From contig WGMA01000015.1 in assembly GCA_016125285.1 (NCBI GenBank), positions 1-64,000 of the forward strand: 64,000 nucleotides of DNA, in the 5' to 3' direction. The notes under the pieces were generated by a model that searched no databases, had not been told where the DNA came from, and was given only the letters and a program-made list of their open reading frames with translations. This stretch comes from Phycisphaera sp. Lineage in GTDB: Bacteria; Planctomycetota; Phycisphaerae; Phycisphaerales; Zrk34. Positions 17,747 to 37,837 of this stretch are shown here, piece by piece. Each line of letters opens with the position of its first letter. Position 1 is the stretch's first letter. A program made the position numbers and the translations under genes.

Positions 17747-17827
17747 AGAAGGGTTCGACAGCGTTCGACAAGGCGTGATAGCGGGTGGTACAGGCCCCGC
17801 CGATGTTCCCGTCGAGAGGTGATTGCG

Positions 17828-19551: not shown

Positions 19552-19983
19552 ATGCAAGACGTTGACGAACTCATCTCGCGCGCGAAGGCCAACGGACATG
19601 ATGTCTGGGTAGCCGGCGCGCAATCGCCAGAGGACGTCGATGAATTTGAGAGAGGATTTGGCGCGAAGCTGCCGCCGTCGTATCGCGAGTTTCTCTTGAA
19701 GTACGGAGAGATCAGCATCGCCGATTCAGTCGCGGCAGGTATGGAGTGGTTGACGACCCAGACCGAAGTCTTTCGCGAGGACTATGACTTGCCTGACTAC
19801 CTTCGCGTTGTGCAACCGGACCACGATGCGCCTTACTGCTTCGATATTCGTCGTCCCGATCCGAACGGTGAAATGCCGATTATCTGTTTTGAATTGCACT
19901 CGCGCCACGAAGGAAAGATCGCATCAAACTTTGGTCAGTGGCTGCGTGATTGGTTCCTGAAAGGTTGGGCGGAAGACAATTGA
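19552..19983 (+). CDS. SMI1/KNR4 (SUKH) domain protein
   Basis: This 143-residue protein has the SUKH fold signature 'EDVDEFERGFGAKLPPSYREFLLKYGEISI' near residues 25-55 and a typical C-terminal 'FGQWLRDWF'. SUKH proteins are best known as immunity proteins of contact-dependent toxins, but some have other regulatory roles. It is sandwiched between pfaD (2 bp before) and pfaA, whose TTG start overlaps its stop, so it is transcribed with the synthase. Third codon positions are clearly less GC-rich than in the flanking genes, which suggests later acquisition. No toxin is nearby. A TTG at 19546 is an alternative start. Confidence 0.84.
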   Translation: MQDVDELISRAKANGHDVWVAGAQSPEDVDEFERGFGAKLPPSYREFLLKYGEISIADSVAAGMEWLTTQTEVFREDYDLPDYLRVVQPDHDAPYCFDIRRPDPNGEMPIICFELHSRHEGKIASNFGQWLRDWFLKGWAEDN

Positions 19984-22900: not shown

Positions 22901-25900
22901 TGATGCTGCTAAGCCGCAAGCGGCTGGGGCATCGACGCACTCTACAACGCAGGCTACTCCCGCCATGGATCAGCAGTCCGCATCGAATCGTCCGTCATCG
23001 AATCCGCTGACCGCGAACGCGCTGGCGGCGACGCAGCAGTCGTTGCTGGCGTTGCAGCAGATGCAGCAGCAGGCCGCGGAACTGCACCGTCAGTACCTCG
23101 AGGGTCAGCAGGCGACGCAGCACGCGATCGCGCAGCTGATCGCGCAGCAGCAGGCGCTGCTGGGTGGCGCGCCGCTGCCGGCGGTGCAGATGCCGGTGGC
23201 GCCCGCGCCGGTTGCGAAGAGGCAAGCGGTGACGGAGGCGAGTGCGCCTTCGCGTGAGCCGCTCCCTCAGTCCGTCCCCGGCGTGGCGGGAGGCGGTGCG
23301 CCGTTCGCCCCGGTGGCAGAGGCGAAGAGGCAAGCGGTGACGGAGGCGAGTGCGCCTTCGCGTGAGCCGCTCCCTCAGTCCGTCCCCGGCGTGGTGGGAG
23401 GCGGTGCGGTTGACGTGTCGCGGTTCCGTGACGCGCTGCTCGCGGTCGTGGCGGACAAGACGGGGTATCCCGTTGAGATGCTCGAACTCGATATGTCGCT
23501 CGACGCGGACCTCGGCATAGACTCGATCAAGCGTGTGGAGATTCTGTCGGCGTTTCAGGAGCGGGTGCCGGATGCGCCGGCTGTGAAGCCGGACGATCTT
23601 GGGCGGTTGCAGACGCTGCGTCAGATCGTGGACTTCATGGGCGCGGCGGCGGGGGCGGCGGATGCGTCTGATGCGAAGAGGCAAGCGGTGGCGGAGGCGA
23701 GTGCGCCATCGCGTGAGCCGCTCCCTCAATCCCTCCCCGGCGGGGAGGGAGGTGGTGGGGTCGACGTGTCGCGGTTCCGTGACGCGCTGCTGGCGGTCGT
23801 GGCGGACAAGACGGGGTACCCCGTTGAGATGCTCGAGCTCGATATGTCGCTCGACGCGGACCTCGGGATTGATTCGATCAAACGTGTGGAGATTCTGTCG
23901 GCGTTTCAGGAACGTGCGCCGGATGCGCCGGCTGTGAAGCCGGACGATCTTGGGCGGCTGCAGACACTGCGGCAGATTGTGGAGTTTATGGGTGACGCGA
24001 CGCAGGCGAGTGCGCCATCGCGTGAGCCCCTCCCTCGATCCCTCCCCGGCGTGGTGGGAGGTGGTGCGGTTGACGTGTCGCGCTTCCGTGATGCGCTGCT
24101 GGCGGTGGTGGCGGATAAGACGGGGTATCCCGTTGAGATGCTCGAACTCGATATGTCGCTCGACGCGGACCTCGGCATAGACTCGATCAAGCGTGTGGAG
24201 ATTCTGTCGGCGTTTCAGGAACGTGTGCCGGACGCGCCGGCGGTGAAGCCGGACGATCTTGGGCGGTTGCAGACGCTGCGGCAGATCGTGGAGTTTATGG
24301 GTGACGCGGCGGAGGCGAGTGCGCCATCGCGTGAGCCCCTCCCTCGATCCCTCCCCGGCGGGGAGGGAGGTTCACCGACGCGGGTCGAGGTGGTTGTTGA
24401 GCCGCCGAAGCCGGCGCGGGTGTACACGGCGGACGATCTGGATCGGCGGGTGCTGGTGGCCACGCCGTTCGATCCGCACGCGGCGCGCGAGCACGTGGAG
24501 CTGCCGGAGGGCGCGGCGGTGTGGGTGACGGACGACGGCACGGAGCTGACGCATTACGTGTGTGCTTCGATCAAGTCGCGCGGGCTGCACCCGGAGGTGG
24601 TGGCGTTGAATCACGCCGCGCCGAACCCCGACGCGCGGCCGGTCGCGGGCCTGGTGCTGCTCGCGCCGGCGAAGCCTGCGTCGACGTACGTCGCCGACGC
24701 GTTCGGGCTGCTGCAGCGTGTGGGGGCGTCGCTGCGTGAATGCGGCAAGGACGGCGCGGCGCTGCTGGCGTGCGTGACGCGATTCGACGGGACGTTCATG
24801 CTGAACGCGCAGGCGGAGCCGGCGGCGGACGTGACGAGCGCGGGGCTGGCGGGTCTGGTGAAGACGGCTTCGCACGAGTGGCCGGAGGTGCACTGCAAGG
24901 TGATTGACGCGGCGCCGGGTCGGCCGGACCTGCAGCGGTTGGGCGAGCACGTGGTGATGGAGATGCTGGCGGTGGGGCCGATCGAGGTGGGCGTGGGCGC
25001 CGGGCCGGACGCACGGGTGGCGCTGGAGCTGCGGGACGAAAAGATTTCGGATTTCGGATCTCGGATTTCGGATTTGAAGGGCGAACTCGGCGGGGGCGAC
25101 GTGATCGTCGTCACCGGCGGGGCGCGCGGCGTGACGGCGGAGGTGGCGGTGGCGCTGGCCGAGACGTACGGCGTGACGCTGGCGTTGCTCGGCCGCAGCC
25201 CGGACCCGAAGCCGGAGCCGGCGTGGCTGGCCGACGCTCACGACGACGCGTCGATCAAGAAGGCGATCATCGCGCACCTCGGCGGCAAGGTGACGCCGAA
25301 GAAGGTCGAGGAACGCTTCCGCCCGATCGTCGCGAACCGTCAGATCAACGAGACGCTGCGTCGCATCGAGGCGGCGGGCGGTGCGGCGGTGTACCGCTCG
25401 GTCGACGTGCGTAACGCGGTGGCGGTGGCGAAGACGCTCGACGGGATCCGCAACGAGCACGGCCCGATCCGCGGCCTCGTGCACGGCGCGGGCGTGCTGG
25501 CCGACAAGCTGATCGAAGACAAGACCGCGGCCGACTTCGCGTCGGTGTGGTCGACGAAGGTGGACGGGCTGCGGGCGCTGCTGGCGGCGACGTCGAAGGA
25601 CGACCTGCGCGTGATGGTGCTGTTCGGCAGCTCGACGGGGCGGTTCGGCCGACGCGGTCAGGCGGACTACGCGGCGGCGAACGAGCTGCTCAACAAGCTG
25701 GCGCAGCGCGAGGCGCGGCGTCGGCCGGGCTGCCGCGTGGTGAGCGTCAACTGGGGCCCGTGGGACGGCGGCATGGTCACGCCGGAGCTGAAGAAGGTGT
25801 TCGCCGCGGAGGGCGTGAGCGTGATCCCGCTGGCGGCGGGCGCGGCGTACCTGACGCGCGAGATCGCGACGGACGTGAGCGACGCGGCGGCGTCGCCGGT

Positions 25901-26927
25901 GGAGGTGGTGCTGCTGGGGCCGCGCGAGGTCGAAGAGGCAAGCGGTGCGGACGCGGGGACGCGATCGGGCGCCGATCGCGCGGAAGAGAAGACCATCGCC
26001 ACGCCGGTGTCCGCGTCGATGCACGTGGCGCTGCGGCGCGAGGTGAGCGTCGAGTCTTGCCCGGTGCTGGCGTCGCACGTGATGAACGGCCGGGCGGTGC
26101 TGCCGACGGCGTTGATGATCGAGTGGATGGCGCACGCGGCGATCCACGACAACCCCGGCCTCGGCTTCGCGGGCTTCGACGACCTGCGCGTGCTCAAGGG
26201 CGTGATCGTCGAGCCGGAGCAGGCCACGGAGCTGCGCGTGCTCAAGGGCGTGATCGTCGAGCCGGAGCAGGCCACGGAGCTGCGCGTGTTTGCGGGCCCG
26301 GCCGAGGTGCGCGGCGAGGCGGACGTGGTGCCGGTCGAACTGCGCAGCGGCGATGGCGGCCAGGTGCTGCACGCCCGCGCGTCGATCGTGCTGAGCAACA
26401 CGCTGGAATCCGCGGCCGCGTCGAGCGCGGCGCGACCGACCGGCGCGTACGCGCACGCCGATCATCTCTACGCCGACGCACGCCTGTTCCACGGCCCGGA
26501 CCTGCACGCGATCGACGCCGTCGAGGCGTGCGGCGCCGCGGGCATCGTCACGCGTGTCCACACCGCGCCCGCGCCCGGCGAATGGCTCCGCCAGCCGCTG
26601 CGGGCGTCGTGGATCGCCGACCCGCTCGTGCTCGACGGCGCGTTCCAGTCGATGATCCTCTGGACGCAGGAAACACGCGGCGTCGGCTCGCTGCCCACCG
26701 GCGCGGCGCGATACCGTCAGTTCCAGCGCGACTACCCGACGACCGGCCCGATGCGGATCGTCATCCGTGTCACCGACCGCAAGGACCACGCCGCGACCGC
26801 CGACATCGAATTGCTCGACGCCAACGGTTCGCTCGTCGGCCGCATCGAAGGCTACACGTGCGTCATCGACGCGTCGCTCAACGAGGCGTTCACCCGCAAC
26901 CAGCTGCCGCAGCGCGTCGGCACGTAA
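19980..26927 (+). CDS. pfaA: PUFA synthase subunit PfaA (KS-AT-ACP3-KR-DH)
   Basis: This is a giant multidomain enzyme of 2315 residues. Domains in order are: ketosynthase (about 10-470; Cys218 in DAACASS, His353 in EAHGTGT, His393 in GHTKAAAG); malonyl/acyltransferase (about 575-925; Ser683 in GHSFGE); a Gln-rich helical linker (about 1010-1065); three acyl carrier domains with LGIDSIKR (Ser1182, Ser1299, Ser1402); ketoreductase (about 1700-1970, 'VVTGGARGVTAEVA', 'FGSSTGRFG'); and a C-terminal dehydratase hot-dog (about 2030-2315, H-V-M-N-G-R-A-V-L-P). The order is that of PfaA. The start is taken as TTG 19980, giving a TTGA overlap with the SUKH stop; conserved sequence begins at once. Several linkers contain dispersed repeats, and residues encoded at 26184-26279 are a perfect tandem duplication within the dehydratase. 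Confidence 0.93.
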   Translation: MSNEPNNPSREPLAIVGIGCRFPKADSLEAFWSNIRRGVDAITEIPESHWDPAAYFDADKSTPDMTYAKRGGFIDPVDFNPMEFGVGPVNIEATDTTQLLGMLVARDALRDAGYATSREATDGRAFDRDRCSVILGVTGTLELVIPLGARLGHPIWRKALAEAGVDGETAEDVVQRIADGYVPWQENSFPGLLGNVAAGRIANRLDTGGTNCVVDAACASSLGAVHMAAMELWAGRSDMAITGGLDTFNDIFMYMCFSKTPALSPTGNSRPFDRDGDGTILGEGLGVVVLKRLSDAQRDGDKVYCVLRSIGSSSDGKGNAVYAPSAKGQAKALRVAYREAGVSPDTIELIEAHGTGTKVGDAVELTALSEVYREAKGDGTWAAVGSVKSMIGHTKAAAGVAGLIKAAMALRHKVLPPTIKVANPLDVVKPGDAPMYINAEQRPWVRGTDAPRRAALSAFGFGGSNFHAVLEEAPAAQAEPAWDGRTVILPLHADTRDALLGELDRIDTTWDWPRLRGEAARHRAAFDAKAKCRLVLVIEKDDTDLGKLLDKAREQIRNPKSAIRNTSAFFAEGTPGKLGVLFPGQGSQRIGMLRDLACQFPAALDALGAADAAYGPATGARHGERLSDRIYPITVFDDAARAAQDAALRDTSVAQPALGAVSAGAWDTLRQFGVSADAFAGHSFGELVALHAAGRIDAGTLHRLAVARGRAMADAANAGGDTGAMLAAFASADQLRQIIEQHKLDVVLANDNAPTQVVLSGPTDAIDRAATVLADAGIRAKRLEVAAAFHSRLVADAETKFAAALADIDLAGTSPNHQITTSPNRGEVYANTTGDRYPADADEAKRLLAAQLANPVKFVDSIRAMHAAGVRTFVEVGPGAVLTGLVGAILGDADHTAIALDASRGKRSGQHDLALLLARLASLGYAVDLTRWDTPASAIEIDQKKPGMTVKLTGANYVTPREPRPPRPRTASKVDAAKPQAAGASTHSTTQATPAMDQQSASNRPSSNPLTANALAATQQSLLALQQMQQQAAELHRQYLEGQQATQHAIAQLIAQQQALLGGAPLPAVQMPVAPAPVAKRQAVTEASAPSREPLPQSVPGVAGGGAPFAPVAEAKRQAVTEASAPSREPLPQSVPGVVGGGAVDVSRFRDALLAVVADKTGYPVEMLELDMSLDADLGIDSIKRVEILSAFQERVPDAPAVKPDDLGRLQTLRQIVDFMGAAAGAADASDAKRQAVAEASAPSREPLPQSLPGGEGGGGVDVSRFRDALLAVVADKTGYPVEMLELDMSLDADLGIDSIKRVEILSAFQERAPDAPAVKPDDLGRLQTLRQIVEFMGDATQASAPSREPLPRSLPGVVGGGAVDVSRFRDALLAVVADKTGYPVEMLELDMSLDADLGIDSIKRVEILSAFQERVPDAPAVKPDDLGRLQTLRQIVEFMGDAAEASAPSREPLPRSLPGGEGGSPTRVEVVVEPPKPARVYTADDLDRRVLVATPFDPHAAREHVELPEGAAVWVTDDGTELTHYVCASIKSRGLHPEVVALNHAAPNPDARPVAGLVLLAPAKPASTYVADAFGLLQRVGASLRECGKDGAALLACVTRFDGTFMLNAQAEPAADVTSAGLAGLVKTASHEWPEVHCKVIDAAPGRPDLQRLGEHVVMEMLAVGPIEVGVGAGPDARVALELRDEKISDFGSRISDLKGELGGGDVIVVTGGARGVTAEVAVALAETYGVTLALLGRSPDPKPEPAWLADAHDDASIKKAIIAHLGGKVTPKKVEERFRPIVANRQINETLRRIEAAGGAAVYRSVDVRNAVAVAKTLDGIRNEHGPIRGLVHGAGVLADKLIEDKTAADFASVWSTKVDGLRALLAATSKDDLRVMVLFGSSTGRFGRRGQADYAAANELLNKLAQREARRRPGCRVVSVNWGPWDGGMVTPELKKVFAAEGVSVIPLAAGAAYLTREIATDVSDAAASPVEVVLLGPREVEEASGADAGTRSGADRAEEKTIATPVSASMHVALRREVSVESCPVLASHVMNGRAVLPTALMIEWMAHAAIHDNPGLGFAGFDDLRVLKGVIVEPEQATELRVLKGVIVEPEQATELRVFAGPAEVRGEADVVPVELRSGDGGQVLHARASIVLSNTLESAAASSAARPTGAYAHADHLYADARLFHGPDLHAIDAVEACGAAGIVTRVHTAPAPGEWLRQPLRASWIADPLVLDGAFQSMILWTQETRGVGSLPTGAARYRQFQRDYPTTGPMRIVIRVTDRKDHAATADIELLDANGSLVGRIEGYTCVIDASLNEAFTRNQLPQRVGT
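21643..21674 (+). repeat. AATCCG-type short repeat inside pfaA
   Basis: Four tandem variants of AATCCG(C/A)AA encode QIRNPKSAIRN in the linker between the KS and AT domains. It is the same family as 25044-25075, 27426-27457, 28326-28432 and 29681-29713. Confidence 0.75.
22416..22452 (+). repeat. TCACCAAA-type short repeat inside pfaA
   Basis: Tandem TCACCAAA units (about 3.5 copies) encode TSPNHQITTSPN within the AT domain, between the 'AAFHSRLVADAE' helix and the 'VYANTTGDRYP' strand. Length remains a multiple of three, so the frame is kept. Confidence 0.65.
23214..24372 (+). repeat. Repeated palindromic linkers around the three ACP domains
   Basis: Five copies of a linker encoding E-A-S-A-P-S-R-E-P-L-P-x-S-x-P-G occur at about 23214-23300, 23322-23408, 23673-23758, 24005-24068 and 24311-24372. 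The best copies hold the perfect palindrome TCCCTCCCC-GGC-GGGGAGGGA. The first two are exactly 108 bp (36 codons) apart. The ACP-coding DNA between copies is also near-identical, especially ACP1 and ACP3. The linker looks like a dispersed palindromic repeat that was amplified with the carrier domains. Confidence 0.8.
25044..25075 (-). repeat. AATCCG-type short repeat inside pfaA (reverse orientation)
   Basis: ATTTCGG units encode KISDFGSRISDL just before the ketoreductase Rossmann motif. They are the reverse complement of the family found at 21643-21674. Confidence 0.75.
26184..26279 (+). repeat. Perfect 48-bp tandem duplication in the pfaA dehydratase
   Basis: Copies at 26184-26231 and 26232-26279 are identical, and a 9-bp start of a third follows (26280-26288). 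They add 16 residues (L-R-V-L-K-G-V-I-V-E-P-E-Q-A-T-E twice) to the hot-dog domain after its active-site helix. Confidence 0.92.
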
Positions 26928-26957: not shown

Positions 26958-29900
26958 ATGAATCCCACGCAGCGCATCGCGATCGTCGGCATCGGCGGCG
27001 TGTTCCCCGGCTCGGACACGCCGGACGCGCTGTGGCGTCACGTCGTCGCCGCGCGCGACCTGGCGACCGAGCCCCCGGCGGGGCGATGGGCGTTGCCGGT
27101 CGATGAGGCGTACTCCCCGACGCTCGCGCCCGACAAGGTCAACAGCCGCCGCATGTGCTTCGTCGACGGCGTGACGCTCGATCACTCGGGCCTCGACATC
27201 GACGCCGACCTCGTTCGCCAGCTCGACCCGATGTTCCACCTCGTGCTGCACGCCGGCCGCGCCGCGTGGCTCGACGCCGTGACCGACGCGCTCGATCGAT
27301 CGCGTGTCGGCGTGATCATCGGCAACATCGCGCTGCCGACGGACACGTCGTCGGCGCTCGCCGACGAATTGCTCGGACCGGCATTCGAGTCCCGCCTGCT
27401 CGGCAAGATCCAAAGCGGCGCGACACATCCGCAATCCGCAATCCGCAATCCGAAATCGACTCACCCGCTCAACCGCTACGTCACCGGCCTGCCCGGCGGC
27501 GTGCTCGCCAAGGCGTTGCGGCTCGGCGGCGGCAGCTGGACGCTCGACGCCGCGTGCGCCTCGTCGCTGTACGCGTTGAAGTTCGCGTGCGACGAGCTGC
27601 TGGCCGGTCGCGCCGATGCGATGCTGGCCGGCGGGCTGTCACGCCCCGACGCGCTGTACACGCAGATGGGCTTCTCACAGCTCCGCGCGGTGAGCCCGAC
27701 GGGGCGGTGCAGCCCGTTCGATCGCAAGGCCGATGGGCTGGTCGTCGGCGAGGGCAGCGGCATCGTCGTGCTCAAGCGGCTGGACGACGCGCTGCGCGAC
27801 GGCGACCACGTCTACGCGACGATCGCGGGCATCGGCCTGAGCAACGACATCGAGGGCAACCTGATGCAGCCGGCGTCGGAGGGCCAGGTCCGCGCGATGC
27901 GCGACGCCTACGCCGCCGCGGGCTGGTCGCCGAGCGACGTCGACCTCATCGAGTGCCACGGCACCGGCACGCCGACCGGCGACGCGGTGGAGTTCAACAG
28001 CCTCGCGACGGTGTGGGGCGACGCGCGCCGTGGCACGCGCTGCGTCATCGGGTCCGTGAAATCCAACGTCGGCCATCTGCTCACCGCCGCGGGATCAGCC
28101 GGCCTGATCAAGACGCTGCTCGCGCTCAAGCACGGCGTGCTGCCGCCGACGGCGAACTACGAGGCGTCGCCCGACAAGATCGACATGAGCGACAGCCCGT
28201 TCGAGGTGCTCGCCGCGCCGCGCGCGTGGCCACGTCGCGCCGACGACCGGCCGCGCCGCGCCGCGGTCAGCGCGTTCGGCTTCGGCGGCATCAACGCGCA
28301 CGTGCTGCTGGAGGAACTCCCCGAGAATCTCGGATTTCGGATTTCGGATTTCAAATTTGATTCACGCGCAGAGGCCTCGTCTTTGTCCGAGGCGGATGAC
28401 AATCCGAAATCCGAAATCCAAAATCCGAAATCACACCGCATCGCGGTGGTCGGCCTCGACGCCCGCGTCGGCCCGTGGGACAGCCTCGCGTCGCTGCGGG
28501 CGCGGCTGCTCGGCGGTGCTGAGTCGTTCGATGCACGCACGCCGCGCAACTGGTGGGGCGTCGACGCACTCGCGCCCGGCGCGGCAGACGTGCGCGGGCA
28601 CGCGATCGATCACGTCGATATCCCGCTCAAGCGGTTCCGCATCCCGCCGACCGAGCTGCGCGACATGCTGCCGCAGCAGGCGTTGATGCTGTTGGCCGCC
28701 GCGGGCGCGCTCGACGACGCCGGGCTCGGCGAACACGTCGAAGCGCGCCTCGACACCGGCGTGTTCATCGGCATCGGCCTCGATCTCAACACGACCAACT
28801 TCCACTTCCGCTGGACGCTCGCCGAGCGCGCCCGCATGTGGAACACACAACTCGGCCTCGGCCTCAGCGACACGGAGCTCGACGCGTGGGCCGCGCAGCT
28901 GCGCGACGCCGCGGGCCCGCCGCTGACCGCCGACCGCACGATGGGCAACCTCGGCGGCATCGTCGCCTCGCGCGTGGCCCGCGCGTTCCGCGTCGGCGGC
29001 CCCAGCTTCACGATCTCCAGCGAAGAAACGTCCGGCGTCCGCGCGCTCGAAGCCGCCGTCGGCGCGCTGCAACGCGGCGAGGTCGACAAGGCCATCGTCG
29101 GCGCGGTCGACTTCGCCACCGACCCCCGCGCCGCGCTCAACACGCCGGGCCTGTCCCCCGACCACACGCTGGCCGACGGCGCCGTCGCGTTCATCCTCAA
29201 GCGGCACGAAGACGCGGTGCGCGACGGTGACAAGGTCTACGCGTTGATCTCGGAAGTGGGAGCGCGGAACGCGGAACGCGGAACTCAAAGCCGCGTCGTC
29301 GATCACGACTGGAGCGCCACGCCGTGCGTCGGTGACTGCGGCGCGGCGTCGGCGATGGTGTCGGTGTTGCGTGCGGTGCTCGGCCTGCACCACCACGTGC
29401 TGCCACCAGCGGACTCGACCGGCTCGCCGCGTTACTGGCTGCGCGACCGCATCGACGGCCCACGCCGCACGACCGTGCACGCCGACAGCGTCGATGGCAA
29501 CCACGTGATCGTCGCGCTCGAAGGCGTCGACGCCAACCCAGCCAAGCTCGACACGCAGCCCCTCGGCGAACTGCCGGCCGCACTGTTCGTCACGACACCC
29601 GACCAACTCGACACGCTGCGCCAGCTCGCCGACCGCACCGACGGCGTGTCGATCGAGCAACTCGCGCGTTTGTGGAAAAGCAATCCGAAATCCGTAATCC
29701 GTAATCCGAAATCGCCGCGCGTCGCGCTCGTCGTCGACTCCGTCGCCCAACTCCGCGACGCGATCACCGACGCGCAACGCGCCGTCTCCGCCAACGAGCG
29801 GCGCACCGGCGACCGCGTGTGGTACAGCCCGCAGCCGCTGTGCGCGGGCGATGCGTCGGGCGAGGTGGCGTTCGTGTTCCCGGGGTCGGGCAGTCATTTC

Positions 29901-32900
29901 GTCGGCATGGGGCGCGAGGCGGCGCTGGCCTGGCCGGACGTCGTCGCGCGGCTCGACGCCGAGAACGATCGCCTCGCGTCACAGTTCGCCGACACGCGGT
30001 TCTGGTCGACGGATCACGTCGACGCGGAGGATCACCCGGCGGTGATCTTCGGGCAGGTGTGGGCCGGGACTTTGATCAGCGACGTGATCGCGCGGTTCGA
30101 CGTGAGGCCCGACGCGGTGATCGGCTACTCGCTCGGCGAGACCGCGGGCATGTTCGCCACGCGGAGCTGGGCCCGCGGATCGCGCGATCTGATGTACGAG
30201 CGCATCTGCGCCTCGAAGCTGTTCACGCGTGACCTGGCCGGGCCGTGCGAGAGCGTGCGAACGGCGTGGGGGTTGCGCGAAGGCGAATCCGTCGACTGGC
30301 AGCTCGGTGTCGTTGATCGCTCGGCGGACGTCGTGCGTGCGGCGATCGCCGGGCGCGAGCACGTGTACCTGCTGATCGTCAACACGCCGGGCGAGTGCGT
30401 CGTCGGCGGCCAGCGCGACCGCGTGCAGCAACTCGTGCGCGATCTGGGTTGCGCGTTCCACGCGGTGGAGGGTGTGACGACGGTGCACTGCGACGTGGCC
30501 CGGCCGGTGTTCGAGCCGTATCGCGATCTGCACCTGTTCGAGACGAAACCCGCGGCGGGCGTACGGTTTTACAGCGGCGTGCTGGGTCGTGCGTATGAGG
30601 TCACGCGCGATTCGATCGCGGACTCGATCGTCGGGCAAGCGGTCCAGCCGTTCGACTACACCAAGGTGATCGAATCGGCGTACGCGGACGGCGTGCGCGT
30701 GTTCGTGGAGATGGGGCCCGGCGCGACGTGCAGCCGGATGATCTCGCAGATCCTCGGCGATCGCCCGCACGCGGCGCGGTCGGCGTGCGTCCGCAACGAG
30801 CGGGGCACGGTGAGTGTGCTGCGTACGCTGGCGATGCTGATCGCGGAGGGCGTCGCGGTTGATCTCGGCAAACTTTACGGCGATGACGACGGCGGGGCGG
30901 CGCGTGATGTGGGCCCGGTCGTGGCGGTGATCGCGGGCGGTGAGGCGTTTGATCCGCCGGCGCCGCGTGGAGGGGACAGGGGACAGGAGACAGGGGACAG
31001 CAGGTCCATCAGCGAGCCGGCTCGTCCGCGAGCCCGTGCGACGTCGGTGTCATCCCGCCCCGTCTCGGCTGCGCCTCGCAGTGGCGGGCTTGGGGCGCAC
31101 TCAGGTGAGATGGCGTTGCAGCCCGTGATCGACGGCCTGGCCGCGGCACAGGTGGCGCACGCGCGGGCGGAGGCGGCGTTCGTCGCGCTCAACAACGACA
31201 TCACCGCGACGATCACGCGCACGCTGCAGTGGCAGATGCAGGTGATCGCGTCGGGTGATGAAGCCGTTTGCGGCTCAGCAGTCGATGAGTTGGTCGCGCC
31301 AGTTGCTAAGCCGCAAGCGGCTTGCGTGCTCGATTACGCCCAGTGCCTCGAGTTCGCGATCGGGTCGATCGCGAAGGTGCTCGGCCCCGAGTTCGCGGAG
31401 GCCGACACGTACCCGTCGCGCGTGCGGCTGCCCGATGAGCCGCTGCAGCTCGTGCATCGCATCACCGCAATCGACGGCGAGCCGCGATCGATGACGCACG
31501 GTCGCGTCGTCACCGAGCACGACATCGTCGACGGCGCGTGGTACCTCGACGGCGGGCGCATCCCCACGTGTATCGCCGTCGAAGCCGGGCAGGCCGACCT
31601 GTTCTTGAGCGGCTACCTCGGCATCGACTTCGAGACGAAGGGCCACGCGGTGTACCGCCTGCTCGACGCGATCGTCACGTTCCACCGCCCGCTGCCCGGG
31701 CCCGGCGAGACCATCGTCTACGACATCCGCATCCTGCACTTCTTCCGGCAGGGCGACACGTACCTGTTCCGCTTCGAGTTCGACGCGACGGTCAACGGCG
31801 AGTCGCTGCTGACGATGCGTGACGGGTGCGCGGGGTTCTTCACGCAGGGCGAGCTCGACGCCGGCAAGGGCATCGTGCTCACGACGATGGACAAGCAGGT
31901 CGTGCCCGGCCCGCGGCCCGAGGACCGCATCAACCTGGCGCCGCTGCCGCCGCAGGGAGCCACCGAGTCGTACAGCGACGCGCAGGTCGATGCGCTGCGG
32001 CGCGGCGACCTCGTCGGTTGCTTCGGCGATGCGTTCGCCGGTCTGCCGCTGCGCGACCCGGTGAAGATCCCCAGCGGGCTGATGACGCTCGTGCACCGCA
32101 TCGTCGAGCTCGATCCGTACGGCGGGCGATTCGGCCGGGGGATCATCGTCGGCGAGGCGGACATCCATCCCGACGACTGGTTCCTGACGTGCCACTTCTT
32201 CGACGACAACGTCATGCCCGGCACGCTGATGTACGAGTGCTGCCTGCACACGCTGCGCATCCTGCTGACACGGCTCGGGTGGGTCGGCGAGGTGGACGAA
32301 GTCGTCTACGAGCCGATCCCCGGCGTGCCGAGCCAGCTCAAGTGCCGCGGGCAGGTGATCGAGACCACGAAGAAGGTCACGTACGAGCTGACGGTGCGTT
32401 CAATGGCCTACGAGGACGACGGCACGCCGGTGGTCCTGGCCGACGCGCTGATGTACGGCGACGGTCGGCCGATCGTGCAGATGAAGACGATGTCGGTGCG
32501 CCTCAGCGGATTGACGCGGCAGCGCGTCGAGCAGATCTGGCGGGAGCGCGGCGTAGTGGGCGATTTCCCCTCACCCTCGCCCTCTCCCGGGGGGAGAGGG
32601 GAACGGTCAATTGCCACATCGGATTGTGGTATTCCGTTCGACTCTGACAGTATTCTCGCGTTCGCGGTGGGCAAGCCGTCGGAGGCGTTCGGTGATCGGT
32701 ACAAGGTGTTCGACGCCGAGCGTGTGATCGCGCGACTGCCGGGGCCGCCGTACAAGTTTTTGGATCGCATCACGCGCATCGAGAGCTGTGAGCAGTGGGT
32801 GCTGAAGTCGGGCGGGAAGATCACGGCGGAATACGATGTGCCGCGCGACGCGTGGTACTTCGCGGCGGACGAGCAAACGCCCTCTCCCTGCAAGGGAGAG

Positions 32901-33845
32901 GGCTGGGGTGAGGGTGAGATGCGCGGCCGCGGCGAGCGCTTCCCATCAGGGCGAGCCGCGCCGCCTCCGCACTCACACCCCTCACACGGCCTCTCCCCTC
33001 AAGGGGAGAGAGGTTTGAGAATGCCTTACGCGGTGCTGCTCGAGGTGTCGCTGCAGCCGTGCGGGTGGCTCGCGGCGTATCTCGGTTCGGCGTTGACGAG
33101 CGACGAGGACCTGTCGTTCCGCAATCTCGGCGGCAGCGGCGTGCAGCACCGCGCGGTCACGCCGGACATCGGCACGCTGTACACCGACGTGACGATCACG
33201 GGCGTGTCGCAGTCGGGCGGGATGATCATCCAGCACTTCGCGTTCGACACGTACTGCGACGCCGGGCCGGTGTACACGGGCAAGACGTACTTCGGGTTCT
33301 TCGCGAAGGAGGCGTTGGCGAACCAGGTGGGCATCCGCGACGCTGACGTCTACGAGCCGAGCGACGCGGAGCGGGCGCGTGCGGTGGGGCCGATCGCGTA
33401 TCCGACCGACGCGCCTTATCCGGACGCCATGATGCGGATGGTGGACCGGGTGGAGATGTGGGTGCCGGACGGCGGGCCGCACGGCCTGGGCTTCATCCGC
33501 GGCACGGCGGACGTGGACCCGAGCGACTGGTTCTACAAGGCTCACTTCTACCAGGACCCGGTGTGGCCCGGCTCGCTGGGGCTGGAGTCGATGGCGCAGC
33601 TGATGAAATACGCGGCGGTGCAGCGGTGGGGCGGTAACGCCTTTGAATCGCTGGCCTTGGGAGAGAAGCACGAATGGATGTACCGCGGTCAGATCCTGCC
33701 GACCGACCGGCGCGTGACGGTCCAGGCGGTCGTGACGGAGGTCGACGATGCGCGTAGACTGCTGCGTGCCGACGGGCATCTGAGCGTTGATGGCAGAATC
33801 ATCTACCAAATGTCGGACTTTGCGATTAGACTGTCGGGCCTCTAA
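26958..33845 (+). CDS. pfaC: PUFA synthase subunit PfaC (KS-CLF-AT-DH-DH)
   Basis: This is a 2295-residue multidomain protein. Order: active ketosynthase (about 5-450; Cys200 in DAACASS, His334, His373); chain-length-factor KS (about 490-850) in which the catalytic Cys is replaced by Glu690 (SSEETSG); acyltransferase (about 960-1310; Ser1058 in GYSLGE); a first double hot-dog dehydratase (about 1458-1853; His1746 in CHFFDDNVMPG); and a second (about 1880-2295; His2196 in AHFYQDPVWPG). The AT domain replaces the separate PfaB found in marine gammaproteobacteria. With PfaA and PfaD it should build a polyunsaturated acyl chain. The start ATG is 30 bp after pfaA. Residues 1974-2021 (T-P-S-P...G-L-R) are a repeat-derived insert inside the second dehydratase. 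Confidence 0.93.
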   Translation: MNPTQRIAIVGIGGVFPGSDTPDALWRHVVAARDLATEPPAGRWALPVDEAYSPTLAPDKVNSRRMCFVDGVTLDHSGLDIDADLVRQLDPMFHLVLHAGRAAWLDAVTDALDRSRVGVIIGNIALPTDTSSALADELLGPAFESRLLGKIQSGATHPQSAIRNPKSTHPLNRYVTGLPGGVLAKALRLGGGSWTLDAACASSLYALKFACDELLAGRADAMLAGGLSRPDALYTQMGFSQLRAVSPTGRCSPFDRKADGLVVGEGSGIVVLKRLDDALRDGDHVYATIAGIGLSNDIEGNLMQPASEGQVRAMRDAYAAAGWSPSDVDLIECHGTGTPTGDAVEFNSLATVWGDARRGTRCVIGSVKSNVGHLLTAAGSAGLIKTLLALKHGVLPPTANYEASPDKIDMSDSPFEVLAAPRAWPRRADDRPRRAAVSAFGFGGINAHVLLEELPENLGFRISDFKFDSRAEASSLSEADDNPKSEIQNPKSHRIAVVGLDARVGPWDSLASLRARLLGGAESFDARTPRNWWGVDALAPGAADVRGHAIDHVDIPLKRFRIPPTELRDMLPQQALMLLAAAGALDDAGLGEHVEARLDTGVFIGIGLDLNTTNFHFRWTLAERARMWNTQLGLGLSDTELDAWAAQLRDAAGPPLTADRTMGNLGGIVASRVARAFRVGGPSFTISSEETSGVRALEAAVGALQRGEVDKAIVGAVDFATDPRAALNTPGLSPDHTLADGAVAFILKRHEDAVRDGDKVYALISEVGARNAERGTQSRVVDHDWSATPCVGDCGAASAMVSVLRAVLGLHHHVLPPADSTGSPRYWLRDRIDGPRRTTVHADSVDGNHVIVALEGVDANPAKLDTQPLGELPAALFVTTPDQLDTLRQLADRTDGVSIEQLARLWKSNPKSVIRNPKSPRVALVVDSVAQLRDAITDAQRAVSANERRTGDRVWYSPQPLCAGDASGEVAFVFPGSGSHFVGMGREAALAWPDVVARLDAENDRLASQFADTRFWSTDHVDAEDHPAVIFGQVWAGTLISDVIARFDVRPDAVIGYSLGETAGMFATRSWARGSRDLMYERICASKLFTRDLAGPCESVRTAWGLREGESVDWQLGVVDRSADVVRAAIAGREHVYLLIVNTPGECVVGGQRDRVQQLVRDLGCAFHAVEGVTTVHCDVARPVFEPYRDLHLFETKPAAGVRFYSGVLGRAYEVTRDSIADSIVGQAVQPFDYTKVIESAYADGVRVFVEMGPGATCSRMISQILGDRPHAARSACVRNERGTVSVLRTLAMLIAEGVAVDLGKLYGDDDGGAARDVGPVVAVIAGGEAFDPPAPRGGDRGQETGDSRSISEPARPRARATSVSSRPVSAAPRSGGLGAHSGEMALQPVIDGLAAAQVAHARAEAAFVALNNDITATITRTLQWQMQVIASGDEAVCGSAVDELVAPVAKPQAACVLDYAQCLEFAIGSIAKVLGPEFAEADTYPSRVRLPDEPLQLVHRITAIDGEPRSMTHGRVVTEHDIVDGAWYLDGGRIPTCIAVEAGQADLFLSGYLGIDFETKGHAVYRLLDAIVTFHRPLPGPGETIVYDIRILHFFRQGDTYLFRFEFDATVNGESLLTMRDGCAGFFTQGELDAGKGIVLTTMDKQVVPGPRPEDRINLAPLPPQGATESYSDAQVDALRRGDLVGCFGDAFAGLPLRDPVKIPSGLMTLVHRIVELDPYGGRFGRGIIVGEADIHPDDWFLTCHFFDDNVMPGTLMYECCLHTLRILLTRLGWVGEVDEVVYEPIPGVPSQLKCRGQVIETTKKVTYELTVRSMAYEDDGTPVVLADALMYGDGRPIVQMKTMSVRLSGLTRQRVEQIWRERGVVGDFPSPSPSPGGRGERSIATSDCGIPFDSDSILAFAVGKPSEAFGDRYKVFDAERVIARLPGPPYKFLDRITRIESCEQWVLKSGGKITAEYDVPRDAWYFAADEQTPSPCKGEGWGEGEMRGRGERFPSGRAAPPPHSHPSHGLSPQGERGLRMPYAVLLEVSLQPCGWLAAYLGSALTSDEDLSFRNLGGSGVQHRAVTPDIGTLYTDVTITGVSQSGGMIIQHFAFDTYCDAGPVYTGKTYFGFFAKEALANQVGIRDADVYEPSDAERARAVGPIAYPTDAPYPDAMMRMVDRVEMWVPDGGPHGLGFIRGTADVDPSDWFYKAHFYQDPVWPGSLGLESMAQLMKYAAVQRWGGNAFESLALGEKHEWMYRGQILPTDRRVTVQAVVTEVDDARRLLRADGHLSVDGRIIYQMSDFAIRLSGL
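27426..27457 (+). repeat. AATCCG-type short repeat inside pfaC
   Basis: Tandem ATCCGCA/AATCCGAAATC units encode HPQSAIRNPKS in a loop of the first ketosynthase domain, about 30 codons before the active-site Cys. Confidence 0.75.
28326..28432. repeat. Complete bipartite AATCCG repeat element inside pfaC
   Basis: This 107-bp element has a left arm of GGATTTC units (28331-28358), a right arm of AATCCGAAATC units (28400-28432) in inverted orientation, and a central hairpin GCCTCG (28374-28379)/CGAGGC (28388-28393). It lies in the linker between the KS and CLF domains and is read in frame. It resembles a small non-autonomous element; the other AATCCG copies here look like single arms. Confidence 0.8.
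29262..29290 (+). repeat. GCGGAAC-type short repeat inside pfaC
   Basis: Three GCGGAAC units encode ARNAERGTQ in the CLF domain after 'KVYALISEVG'. It is a different repeat family from its neighbours and is again read in frame. Confidence 0.65.
29681..29713 (+). repeat. AATCCG-type short repeat inside pfaC
   Basis: Tandem AATCCG(A/T)AA units encode NPKSVIRNPKS in the linker between the CLF and AT domains. Confidence 0.75.
30971..31003 (+). repeat. GGGGACA-type short repeat inside pfaC
   Basis: Four tandem GGGGACA/GGAGACA units encode GGDRGQETGDS in the linker after the AT domain. Confidence 0.7.
31260..31325. repeat. Inverted pair of AGCCGCAAGCGGCT palindromes inside pfaC
   Basis: GAAGCCGTTTGCGGCTCAGCA at the left and its imperfect inverted copy (TGCTAAGCCGCAAGCGGC) at the right enclose 23 bp; the whole is read in frame before the first dehydratase. 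A single copy of the same palindrome lies in pfaA at 22907-22925. Confidence 0.7.
32575..32604 (+). repeat. CCCTCTCCC palindromic repeat inside pfaC
   Basis: The palindrome CCCTCTCCC/GGGAGAGGG with a short G spacer encodes F-P-S-P-S-P-S-P-G-G-R-G-E-R between the two dehydratase domains. Confidence 0.75.
32877..33020. repeat. Bipartite CCCTCTCCC element inserted within the second dehydratase of pfaC
   Basis: Left hairpin CCCTCTCCC-tgcaa-GGGAGAGGG (32880-32902) and right hairpin CTCTCCCC-tcaa-GGGGAGAG (32991-33010) face each other, with GGGTGAGG and CCCCTCAC sequences inside. The element is 144 bp (48 codons) and adds residues 1974-2021 between 'WYFAADEQ' and 'MPYAVLLE', which are normally contiguous or nearly so in this domain family as I remember it. 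Confidence 0.82.
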
Positions 33846-33905
33846 TTTGAACCTTCTTGCGATGTGGCCCAACCAAATGTCAGTCTCCGGGTGGGCGGAG
33901 CGACG

Positions 33906-35111
33906 ATGAAGTATTCGCGTGTGTACATGGAGTCGCTGGGGTATGAGCTGCCGCCGGTGGTCGTGACGTCGACCGAGCTGGAGCAGCGGCTGGCCCCCGT
34001 TTACGAGAAGCTGCACCTGTCGTCGGGCCAGCTCGAAGCGCTGACCGGCATCACCGAGCGGCGCTGGTGGGACGACGGCTACTCGCTGTCGCAGGGCGCG
34101 GCCGCGGCGGCGCGCAAGGCGCTGGACCGCTCCGGGCTCAAACCCAAGGACATCGAGGCGCTGATCTACACCGGCGTGTGCCGCGAGAACTTCGAGCCCG
34201 CCACCGCGTGCGCCGTCGCCGCGGCCGTAGGCATCCGCGACGACGCCCACGTGTATGACATCTCCAACGCCTGCCTCGGCGTGCTCAACGGCATCATCGA
34301 CATCGCCAACCGCATCGAGCTTGGCCAGATCCGCGCGGGTATGGTCGTTTCGTGCGAGTCGGCCCGCGACATCAACGAGATCACGATCCAGCGCCTGCTC
34401 GACGACCCGACCATGGAGACGTTCAGCACGTGCCTCGCGACGCTGACCGGCGGGTCCGGCGCCGCGGCCGTGGTCCTGACCGACGGGTCGTTCAGCAAGG
34501 AGCACCGTCGGCGCCTGCTCGGCGGCGTGACCAAGGCCGCGCCGGAGCACCACCGCCTGTGCCGCTGGGGCATCACGCTCAGCCCGATCAAGATCGGCAA
34601 GATGATCTTCTCGCCGGACAAGCTCAAGAACACGTTCGACCAGCTGACCGACCCGCAGACCGTGCCGTCGGTCGTGCGCGACATGATGGTCAGCACCGGC
34701 GACAAGCTGCCCCCGGCGCTGGCGAACATGCTGCCGTCCGAGGCGCTGCCCGCGGCGCTGACGCAGGTGATGAACACCGACTCGGTCGCCGTCCTGAAGC
34801 ACGGCGTCGAGCTGGGCATCCGCACCTGGGGCGCGTTCCTCAAGAACCTCGGCTGGGCCCGCGACGAGGTCGACAAGATCATCTGCCACCAGGTCGGCAC
34901 CGGCCACCGCGACACCATCCTCCGCGAGCTCGGCATCTCGCCCGAAAAGGACTTCACGACGTATCAGTACCTCGGCAACATCGGCACCGTGTCGCTCCCG
35001 CTGACCGCCGCCCTCGCCGAGCAACGCCGCCACCTCCAGCCCGGCGACCACGTCGGGTTCCTCGGTATCGGCTCCGGCCTCAACTGCCTGATGCTCGGCT
35101 GGAAGTGGTAA
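33906..35111 (+). CDS. oleA: OleA: head-to-head condensing thiolase-fold enzyme
   Basis: OleA is a 401-residue KAS III-like enzyme that condenses two activated fatty acyl chains in a non-decarboxylative Claisen reaction to a 2-alkyl-3-ketoacid. The catalytic Cys is C123 in SNACLGVLNG, with His328 (CHQVGTGH) and Asn358 (YLGNIGTV). Glu97 in 'ENFEPATA' may be the second-channel base known for OleA, but I have not aligned it. GGCGGAG before ATG 33906 decides the start over an upstream in-frame codon. It follows pfaC by 60 bp. In this operon its likely substrates are the polyunsaturated chains made by PfaA/C/D, perhaps taken directly from an ACP, since no thioesterase or acyl-CoA ligase is encoded here. 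Confidence 0.93.
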   Translation: MKYSRVYMESLGYELPPVVVTSTELEQRLAPVYEKLHLSSGQLEALTGITERRWWDDGYSLSQGAAAAARKALDRSGLKPKDIEALIYTGVCRENFEPATACAVAAAVGIRDDAHVYDISNACLGVLNGIIDIANRIELGQIRAGMVVSCESARDINEITIQRLLDDPTMETFSTCLATLTGGSGAAAVVLTDGSFSKEHRRRLLGGVTKAAPEHHRLCRWGITLSPIKIGKMIFSPDKLKNTFDQLTDPQTVPSVVRDMMVSTGDKLPPALANMLPSEALPAALTQVMNTDSVAVLKHGVELGIRTWGAFLKNLGWARDEVDKIICHQVGTGHRDTILRELGISPEKDFTTYQYLGNIGTVSLPLTAALAEQRRHLQPGDHVGFLGIGSGLNCLMLGWKW

Positions 35112-35181
35112 TCCGTACCCCGCCGGCCGACGGGTCCCGTCCCGCGGCCTCGAGTTCGCCCACCCGGGCGCCGCCACGAAC

Positions 35182-36081
35182 ATGAAGCTGCCCGACTATC
35201 CATTCACTCCCAAAAGCGTCGACATCGACGGGCACCACCTGTTCTACCTCGACGAGGGGCCCGGCGGGCTGATCCCCGCGCCCAACGTCGTGATGCTGCA
35301 CGGCAACCCGACCTGGTCGTTCTACTACCGCCGTCTCGTGTCCGCGCTGTCCGACCGCTACCGCTGCGTCGTGCCCGACCACATCGGCATGGGCCTGTCC
35401 GACAAGCCCGCCAAAGACGAATACCGCTACACGCTTGAACAGCGTGTCGATGACCTCGACGCGCTGCTCGGCGAGATCAACGTCACCGAAGACATCACGC
35501 TCGTGCTGCACGACTGGGGCGGCATGATCGGCATGGCCTACGCGTGCCGCTACCCCGAGCGGATCGCCCGGCTCGTGCTGCTCAACACCGGCGCGTTCCG
35601 CCACCCCGCGGGCAAGCGCCTGCCGTGGCAGATCCGCCTGGCGCGCACCGCCGGGCTCGGCTCGTTCCTCGTCAGGCAGCTCAACCTGTTCTCCAAGGGC
35701 GCGGTGACCAACTGCGTGACGCGCGGGCCGATGCCCGAAGACGTCGCCAACGCGTACCTGATGCCGTACGACACGCCGGAGCACCGCGTGGCGGTGCACG
35801 AGTTCGTGCGCGACATCCCCGTCGGGCCGGGCGACGAGGCGTGGGACCGCGTGCTGGAGGTCGAGGCGCAGCTCGGGCAGTTCTCCGACCGCCCGGCGCT
35901 GCTCTGCTGGGGCATGCGGGACTTCGTGTTCGACGCCGACTTCCTCGACAAGTGGCGGCAGCTGCTGCCCGACGCCGAGGTGCACCGCTTCAAGGACGCC
36001 GGTCACTACGTCCTCGAAGACGCGCACGAAGAGATCATCCCGCTCGTGTCCGAGTTCCTCGACCGCGAGACCAAACGCTGA
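35182..36081 (+). CDS. oleB: OleB: alpha/beta hydrolase (beta-lactone decarboxylase)
   Basis: This 299-residue protein is of the haloalkane-dehalogenase-like alpha/beta hydrolase branch. The oxyanion segment is HGNPTWS (residues 40-46), the nucleophile Asp111 is in LHDWGG, and the catalytic His275 is in DAGHYVLED. In the Ole pathway it decarboxylates the beta-lactone made by OleC to a cis-olefin. It is encoded separately here, whereas some bacteria have an OleBC fusion. It is placed 70 bp after oleA and 61 bp before oleC. Without context it could be called a haloalkane dehalogenase; the neighbours settle the role. Confidence 0.9.
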   Translation: MKLPDYPFTPKSVDIDGHHLFYLDEGPGGLIPAPNVVMLHGNPTWSFYYRRLVSALSDRYRCVVPDHIGMGLSDKPAKDEYRYTLEQRVDDLDALLGEINVTEDITLVLHDWGGMIGMAYACRYPERIARLVLLNTGAFRHPAGKRLPWQIRLARTAGLGSFLVRQLNLFSKGAVTNCVTRGPMPEDVANAYLMPYDTPEHRVAVHEFVRDIPVGPGDEAWDRVLEVEAQLGQFSDRPALLCWGMRDFVFDADFLDKWRQLLPDAEVHRFKDAGHYVLEDAHEEIIPLVSEFLDRETKR

Positions 36082-36142
36082 GCGGAGCGCCCGGACACGC
36101 CGCGCCTCTGACATCGCCCGTCAGCCCCGCTACACTCCCCCC

Positions 36143-37837
36143 ATGACCGCCGTTTCGGACACGACCGTCAATATCGCCTCGCACCTGCCCGCGATGGCCG
36201 CGCGGCAGCCGGACACGATCGCCCTGCGCGTGCCGATCGGGCGCGACGCCGACGGCCTGCGCTACGCCGAGTGGACCTACGCCGAGCTCGACCGCGCGTC
36301 CGATGAGATCGCGCGCGGCCTGCAGCGGATGGGCGTCACGCGCGGCACGCGCACCGCGCTGCTCGTGCCGCCCTCCGCCGAGTTCTTCGCCCTCGTGTTC
36401 GCGCTGTTCAAGGTCGGCGCGGTGATGGTCTGCGTCGACCCCGGCATCGGCGTCAAGAACATGGGCAAGTGCCTGACCGAGGCCGAGCCCGAGGCGTTCA
36501 TCGGCGTGCCCAAGGCGCAGGTCGCCCGACGCCTGCTCGGCTGGGCGCGCGGGTACGTCAAGATGTCGATCACCGTCGGCGGCCTGCTCGGCACGACGCT
36601 GAACAAGGTGCGGTTCCTCGGGCAGTCGACGTGTGAAACCTCCGTCCTCGCCGACACCCAGCCCGACGACCTCGCCGCGATCCTCTTTACGTCAGGCTCC
36701 ACCGGCATCCCGAAGGGCGTGGTCTACACGCACGGCAACTTCGACGCGCAGGTCCGCGCGCTGGTCGATCACTTCGATATCCAGCCCGGCGAGGTCGACC
36801 TGTGCACGTTCCCGCTGTTCGCGCTGTACGCCCCGGCGATGGGCATGACCGCGGTGATCCCGCGCATGGACTTCACGCGACCGGGCTCCGTTGATCCGCG
36901 CGAGATCATCGAACCGGTGCGGCGGTTCGGCGTGACCAACATGTTCGGTTCGCCGGCGCTGCTGCGCCGCGTGATCGACACGCCGGACGTCGAGGTCGTG
37001 CCGCCGCCCGTGCTGCCGTCGCTCAAGCGTGTGATCTCGGCGGGCGCGCCCGTGCCCGCGACGGTGATCAAACAATGGACCGAACGCATGCTCGGCGCCG
37101 ACGCCGACGTGCACACGCCGTACGGCGCGACCGAGTCGCTGCCCGTGGCGTGCATCGCGGGCTGCGAGATCCTCGGCGAAACGTCGGCGCAGACCGACGA
37201 AGGCCGCGGCGTTTGCGTCGGCCGGCCCGTCGGCGACGTGGCCGTGCGCGTCATCCGCATCACCGACGAGGCGATCGACACGTGGGCCGACGACCTGTGC
37301 GTCGACGACGGGCAGATCGGCGAGATCGTCGTGCGCGGCCCGGCGGTCACCGCGTCGTACCACCACCGCCCGGACCAGACGCGCCTCGCGAAGATCGCCG
37401 ACACGGACGCGCACGGCGGCGGCGTGTGGCACCGCATGGGCGACCTGGGTTACCTCGACGAGTCCGGCCGCGTGTGGTTCTGCGGGCGCAAGATTCAGCG
37501 TGTGAAGCTGCCGGACGGCGACCTGTACACGATCCCGTGCGAGGCGGTGTTCAACACCCACCCGGCGGTGCGGCGCACGGCCCTGGTTGGCGTCCAGCGC
37601 AACGGCGTCGTGCAGGCGGCGCTCTGCTTCGAGCTGCGCACCGATACGTCGGCCAACCCCGTCGAGATCCATCGCGACCTCAAGCGTTTCGCCGAGCGGA
37701 CCGCCGATACGCGTCGCATCGAGCACTTCCTGTATCATTCGGGGCAGTTCCCGGTCGACATCCGACACAACGCGAAGATCGGCCGGGAGAAACTCGCGAA
37801 GTGGGCCGCGAAACAGCTCGGGGGCAAACCGGCATGA
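36143..37837 (+). CDS. oleC: OleC: AMP-forming beta-lactone synthetase
   Basis: This is a 564-residue ANL-superfamily adenylating enzyme. The P-loop-like core motif TSGSTGIPKGVVYTH is at about 191-205, the 'YGATES' motif near 330 and 'RMGDLGYLDESGRVWFCGRK' near 432-451; the C-terminal lysine is probably in 'AKIGREKLAKW'. OleC activates the beta-hydroxy acid with ATP and closes it to a beta-lactone rather than forming a CoA ester. Its stop overlaps the start of oleD as ATGA, so they are translationally coupled. Confidence 0.92.
   Translation: MTAVSDTTVNIASHLPAMAARQPDTIALRVPIGRDADGLRYAEWTYAELDRASDEIARGLQRMGVTRGTRTALLVPPSAEFFALVFALFKVGAVMVCVDPGIGVKNMGKCLTEAEPEAFIGVPKAQVARRLLGWARGYVKMSITVGGLLGTTLNKVRFLGQSTCETSVLADTQPDDLAAILFTSGSTGIPKGVVYTHGNFDAQVRALVDHFDIQPGEVDLCTFPLFALYAPAMGMTAVIPRMDFTRPGSVDPREIIEPVRRFGVTNMFGSPALLRRVIDTPDVEVVPPPVLPSLKRVISAGAPVPATVIKQWTERMLGADADVHTPYGATESLPVACIAGCEILGETSAQTDEGRGVCVGRPVGDVAVRVIRITDEAIDTWADDLCVDDGQIGEIVVRGPAVTASYHHRPDQTRLAKIADTDAHGGGVWHRMGDLGYLDESGRVWFCGRKIQRVKLPDGDLYTIPCEAVFNTHPAVRRTALVGVQRNGVVQAALCFELRTDTSANPVEIHRDLKRFAERTADTRRIEHFLYHSGQFPVDIRHNAKIGREKLAKWAAKQLGGKPA

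Follow-up and report, generated by a model that had tools for sequence, protein, structure and literature searches.

The second dehydratase domain (DH2) of a PfaC-type PUFA synthase subunit from Phycisphaera sp. is interrupted in frame by one copy of a genome-wide family of paired palindromic repeats, a membership absent from the initial annotation of this DNA, and the protein most probably tolerates the insert as a floppy, disordered surface loop without loss of the dehydratase. The gene lies in a window of 64,000 nt (contig WGMA01000015.1 of assembly GCA_016125285.1, positions 1 to 64,000), in which the following features are relevant:

26958..33845, plus strand: pfaC-like gene, 2295 aa, with KS, KS/CLF-like, AT-like, DH1 and DH2 domains (open reading frame, Pfam, orthologues)
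32568..32600, minus strand: second, single unit of the repeat family in the DH1-DH2 linker, encoding FPSPSPSPGGRGER, with 9/9 triads (motif search, triad parse)
32877..33020, plus strand: in-frame insertion of 48 codons (net 46 versus orthologues), an inverted pair of triplex-type palindromic units (sequence, orthologue alignment, family alignment)
32880..32915, plus strand: unit 1, CCCTCTCCCT-GCA-AGGGAGAGGG-CTG-GGGTGAGGGT, with 10/10 Watson-Crick pairs and 10/10 class-II triads (triad parse)
32916..32976, no strand: inter-unit spacer, 61 nt by the triad parse for a family distance of about 59 nt (sequence, family pairs)
32977..33011, minus strand: unit 2, inverted and more diverged, TCTCTCCCCT-TG-AGGGGAGAGG-CCG-TGTGAGGGGT, with 9/10 pairs and 9/10 triads (triad parse)
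33420..33845, plus strand: C-terminal hotdog of DH2, downstream of the insert, with an intact AHFYQDPVWPG motif (Pfam, alignment)

Pfam recognizes in the open reading frame two KS domains, an acyltransferase and two FabA-like domains, the content of a PfaC-type subunit. The frame is intact over its 2295 residues, and so are its pfa neighbours: a PfaA-type gene upstream (19950-26924), which matches KS, AT, three ACP, KR and DH domains, and, upstream of that gene, a reductase-like gene (17819-19546). The insert covers 144 nt (codons 1974-2021), is free of stops, reads TPSPCKGEG...GERGLR and falls after WYFAADxQ and before the central helix in the N-terminal hotdog of DH2. All nine PfaC orthologues covering this site, seven from the same order and two from MAG contigs labelled Gammaproteobacteria, are empty and read WYFAxDRQxxMPFAVLLE or close variants. 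Eight orthologues align along the entire domain, and relative to these PfaC has gained a net 46 residues, in agreement with a three-row alignment; it is not 48 because the orthologues retain two residues between Q and M. The initial annotation had proposed searching orthologues for an equally long unrelated loop; none has one, so that the hypothesis of an ordinary variable loop is excluded for these relatives and the claim of an insertion stands. Since the closest orthologue is only about 70% identical, the junctions, any target-site duplication and the age of the event are defined inexactly.

The palindromic 48-codon element described at 32877-33020 inside DH2 was recovered as such, and the fold of its RNA is far more stable than expected from its composition (z of -4.3, with 0/200 shuffles as good). 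Its second hairpin has the 8 pairs first reported (CTCTCCCC-TCAA-GGGGAGAG), but the first one, GCCCTCTCCCT-GCA-AGGGAGAGGGC, contains 11 pairs rather than 9, and an inner inverted pair, GGGTGAGG/CCCCTCAC, lies within the insert. Throughout the repeat family, a unit is built of a pyrimidine stem, a loop, a purine stem, a second loop and a third strand. Scoring C.G*G, T.A*A or T.A*T as allowed triads of pyrimidine stem, purine stem and third strand, we found that 124 of the 160 parsed units obey the class-II triplex rule fully, against 3/160 when the third strand is shuffled. The units of the PfaC insert can thus be assigned, by their predicted triads, to the G/C-rich intrastrand-triplex repeats (PIT/TM), arranged as a REPIN-like doublet. 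As for the loops, the commonest doublets combine a TTG loop with a C loop (27 pairs of CCG, CTG or CAG with TTG) and C+C pairs are also present; the PfaC pair, with CTG and CCG, is not of the mixed TT-loop/C-loop kind.

The family is large. The 19-mer core GAGAGGGCTGGGGTGAGGG occurs 137 times at ≤3 mismatches in the 6.09-Mb genome, the reversed pattern once, and the perfect hairpin is found 92 times genome-wide (0 for the control). In 1.13 Mb of stretches around copies we located 168 units, and 57 of the 60 close pairs are inverted with the hairpins outside, at an inter-unit distance mostly of 56-61 nt, about 59. The doublets can be aligned along their whole length (58 aligned copies). Over positions 1-143 the 144 nt from PfaC are 73% identical to a copy in a PfkB-type gene (L095:8239-8370; E of 7e-14), and in the family alignment the nearest other copy is at 68%. 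With 63.6% identity to the consensus, the sixth lowest of the 58 copies, the PfaC copy is apparently old, as one of the family's most diverged members; its flanks are unique. Across the order the motif has a patchy distribution, with occurrences in 43/101 genomes.

The initial annotation left two outcomes side by side, a tolerated loop or a reaction altered or lost, and the data favor the first. The residues of the catalytic motifs of DH2 are kept: AHFYQDPVWPG, LLE and the conserved Glu of the central helix. Foldseek relates the model of an empty orthologue (L033, pLDDT of 66) to double-hotdog dehydratases (2cf2, CurJ DH) and to FabA. In this model the site is in the N-terminal hotdog, in a loop that joins a short helix (77-80) to the central one (89-109), which bears out the view that the insert is within a folded catalytic domain. 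In the model with insert (pLDDT of 48), residues 82-134 have no secondary structure and the same elements are present on either side. This comparison used L033 in place of an insert-less form of the protein and an alignment of 3 rows, and because the confidence of both models is modest or low we give them little weight, so that local damage to DH2 could still exist. The terminal branch leading to the window sequence measures 0.295 for DH1, 0.294 for DH2 and 0.246 when only the N-terminal hotdog of DH2 is taken. A DH2 branch no longer than that of DH1 gives no sign of release from constraint, and a pseudogene or relaxed DH2 was rejected on this ground of rates.

An insert that disables or alters DH2, leaving a PUFA synthase with a different product or a dying one, is accordingly an unlikely reading. 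It draws on the position of the insert, inside the domain and 7 residues ahead of the conserved Glu, near the expected active site, and on the fall in model confidence. Such a fall would however be produced anyway by an unaligned insert of 46 residues, the catalytic-motif residues are conserved, the long frame and its pfa neighbours are intact, and the branch shows no acceleration despite an element that ranks with the most diverged copies. In-frame copies in DnaE, in valyl-tRNA synthetase (ValRS) and in further enzymes, described below, also favor tolerance.

The location and the frame of the other copies were studied in the same 1.13 Mb, chosen around known copies and not covering the whole genome, which biases the counts of location more than those of frame. 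Coding signal was given by a dicodon model trained on long open reading frames, for which 55% of random positions have coding on both sides. Only 11/55 doublets do (P of 3e-7): doublets avoid genes, in which they are depleted but not absent. Eight of these 11 keep an open frame across the element; a ninth is in frame too but meets a stop (the open reading frame there can begin inside the element), a tenth is out of phase and the last is flanked by opposite genes. Unit 2 of the PfaC pair has diverged too far for the pair to count as a doublet; unit 1 scores in frame. When PfaC is included, 10/11 same-strand intragenic doublets are in frame, against an expected 1/3 (P of 1.3e-4), in a test that is small and drawn from the surroundings of known copies. 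A second criterion retained seven in-frame doublets, plus PfaC, with coding signal on both sides. The hosts are:

In-frame doublets: DnaE, ValRS, an amine-oxidase-type FAD enzyme, a PfkB kinase, a pyridine-nucleotide oxidoreductase, an alpha/beta hydrolase, a PMT_2 transferase and a dockerin protein
Single units: MnmG and an O-antigen ligase

Alignments to the solved structures of ValRS (1gax), DnaE (2hpi) and MnmG (3cp2) break or show a gap at the insert, and 11/11 aligned ValRS homologues from relatives are without it. DnaE is a weaker case than ValRS or PfaC because its site is a linker of variable length in relatives. The PfaC element had been described as unlike the other repeats in lying inside a folded domain; that holds within the window and fails genome-wide, folded domains elsewhere carrying the element too. 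Several doublets share a reading frame whose peptide is PLPQVGERLGEGDGS...TLTPALSLxGRG or a close variant of it, and the PfaC copy is read in another frame than most intragenic copies. All 52 measurable doublets have at least one stop-free frame, so open frames are intrinsic to these GC-rich sequences and need no coding selection.

The explanation that we favour, and hold to be probable, is that of a selfish-type element that was copied and inserted, whose frame in pfaC was kept by chance and which is tolerated as a disordered surface loop of a functional DH2. A doublet would have been copied and inserted into pfaC, in the loop that precedes the central helix in the N-terminal hotdog, where it happened to preserve the frame and brought no stop. 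It would then be translated as about 46 extra residues rich in Pro, Gly and charges, presumably disordered at the domain surface, and DH2 would stay functional. Purifying selection would have cleared the insertions that broke a frame or a domain, which would account for doublets being rare in genes and for the intragenic ones being in frame.

It is much less likely that the loop, or the RNA or DNA hairpin, has been recruited for translational pausing between subdomains, for a protein-protein contact or for regulation of pfa. The stable RNA fold, the second unit in the DH1-DH2 linker and the recurrence of one peptide frame in unrelated proteins are in line with a recruited role; on the other hand, the hosts have no common function, their sites differ, the orthologues manage without the insert, and the PfaC copy is far from the consensus and in a frame unlike most. 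That the insert is removed or skipped by RNA processing, translational bypass or protein splicing, yielding a mature PfaC without it, is hardly credible: the precise, frame-keeping fit is all that speaks for it, Rfam gives nothing above gathering score over the element (the sub-threshold matches are plainly irrelevant microRNAs and sRNAs), PfaC has no match to an intein domain, and a skipped insert could be out of frame or contain stops, yet the intragenic copies are in frame and open. An assembly artefact or a chance GC-rich sequence can be practically dismissed, even in an assembly of 90 contigs of which some end at these repeats, given the distinct sequence of the PfaC copy, its unique flanks and reversed-pattern controls of 0-1.

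Copies of a single architecture are scattered and orthologues have empty sites, from which we infer that the doublets have moved. A neighbouring RAYT, the mobiliser usually proposed for REPINs, is unsupported: the genome has 4 Y1_Tnp (RAYT-type) genes, none with a unit within about 1.5 kb (two of the flanks are cut by contig ends), and over the order a perfect unit was found near 1/33 Y1 loci. That single locus, L184 (G066:C113), is a candidate for a linked mobiliser in a relative. The genome counts of Y1 genes and of the motif correlate weakly, with a rho of 0.38 uncorrected for relatedness and genome size. A further observation concerns AGCAGGATATTGC, whose 12 occurrences are all near contig ends (e.g., L211-L222, L010:1526, L072:9255), directly after CCCTCTCCC stems, that is, in the position of the hairpin loop. 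Two continuations follow it, ATAGTTGCC.. and GCCACGGC.., the latter running into an ATGGACGACGAACGATTC start; they look like both ends of one hairpin-targeting IS with terminal inverted repeats, which would break the assembly. An IS110-type transposase was considered as the source of a repeat-targeting IS and discarded, as the genome has no match to PF02371. A bolder and rather improbable proposal is that paired triplex motifs form, in this order, a mobile class of protein-inserting elements, which an enzyme yet unnamed would move in frame into housekeeping enzymes and whose recurring peptide (PLPQVGERLGEGDGS...TLTPALSLxGRG) would be kept as harmless or useful.

Neither the repeat family nor the in-frame occurrence of palindromes within genes is new; what stands out is that in-frame use recurs. 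A 2015 paper described the G/C-rich intrastrand triplex motif for E. coli, and for more than 260 genomes in all, and showed that the E. coli form adopts a triplex in vitro (PMC4666352); for Enterobacter sp. 638, a further paper mentions the hairpin part (PMC2869309). The unit found here is almost letter for letter the E. coli CCCTCTCCCTTCCAGGGAGAGGGTCGGGGTGAGGGT, with the same order of pyrimidine strand, purine strand and third strand and the same class-II triads, which predict a triplex here. In E. coli, inverted pairs are reported always to join a type A to a type B motif (PMC4666352); among the inverted pairs here, those of a TT-loop unit with a C-loop unit are the most frequent, beside pairs of other kinds. 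All 23 E. coli copies are reported to be intergenic and to have no link to mobile elements (PMC4666352), whereas at least 8 pairs here are in frame in genes; the distance between units is also longer here, and conserved at about 59 nt. Like REPINs or REP doublets (Bertels and Rainey 2011, PMC3116915), the pairs are inverted, have a fixed spacing and a high copy number and take the doublet as unit. Most of them, but not all, lie outside genes. They differ in that no RAYT gene is flanked by units here, the unit is a triplex motif and a minority is in frame in genes.

GTAG/CGTC REP dimers were reported in frame in the DnaE of Rickettsia conorii, in DnaE2, in tRNA synthetases and in repair genes, where, it was argued, loops or linkers accommodate them (Di Nocera et al. 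2013, PMC3733652). The present elements resemble them by their in-frame intragenic copies, with DnaE and a tRNA synthetase among the hosts, but belong to another repeat family, with inserts of 33-46 aa where most of theirs encode 20-30 aa; terminal GTAG or CGTC at the stem ends is absent from the consensus of the 58 aligned copies. The Rickettsia palindromic elements (RPE; Ogata et al., as cited in PMC3733652 and PMC10969869) are, according to these citing papers, about 150-bp elements in frame in many unrelated genes with a recurring peptide. As far as that account goes, the likeness seen is one of behaviour: in-frame insertion into unrelated genes with a recurring reading frame, here in a different host and with most copies outside genes. 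In a limited literature search we found no description of a triplex pair in frame in proteins, and no priority is claimed.

A triplex-type repeat reported as intergenic in E. coli is thus carried in frame here by DNA polymerase III alpha, valyl-tRNA synthetase and a PUFA synthase. If translated, these copies would be natural insertions of 33-46 residues tolerated in essential enzymes, and the genome would be one where insertion tolerance, repeat age and frame selection are measurable. Such inserts should not be taken as functional domains or as marks of pseudogenes.

Other observations were made in the window. A further unit of the family, GAGAGGGCCGGGGTGAGGG, with a near-perfect hairpin, lies on the minus strand at 1888-1921. 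Runs of the heptads AATCCGA/AATCCGC on either strand form a second type of repeat in PfaA and PfaC (21642, 25043, 27424, 28327, 28399 and 29680); their peptides resemble NPKSEIQNPKS and are apparently located in linkers of the two proteins. In the repeated-ACP region of PfaA (23192-24376), tandem copies of 300 nt are nearly identical (91-93%), with spacings of 351 and 309. Finally, directly 3' of pfaC (33864-37834), thiolase/ACP_syn_III-type, alpha/beta hydrolase and AMP-binding genes follow each other in the order OleA-OleB-OleC, which suggests a pathway to polyunsaturated head-to-head hydrocarbons.
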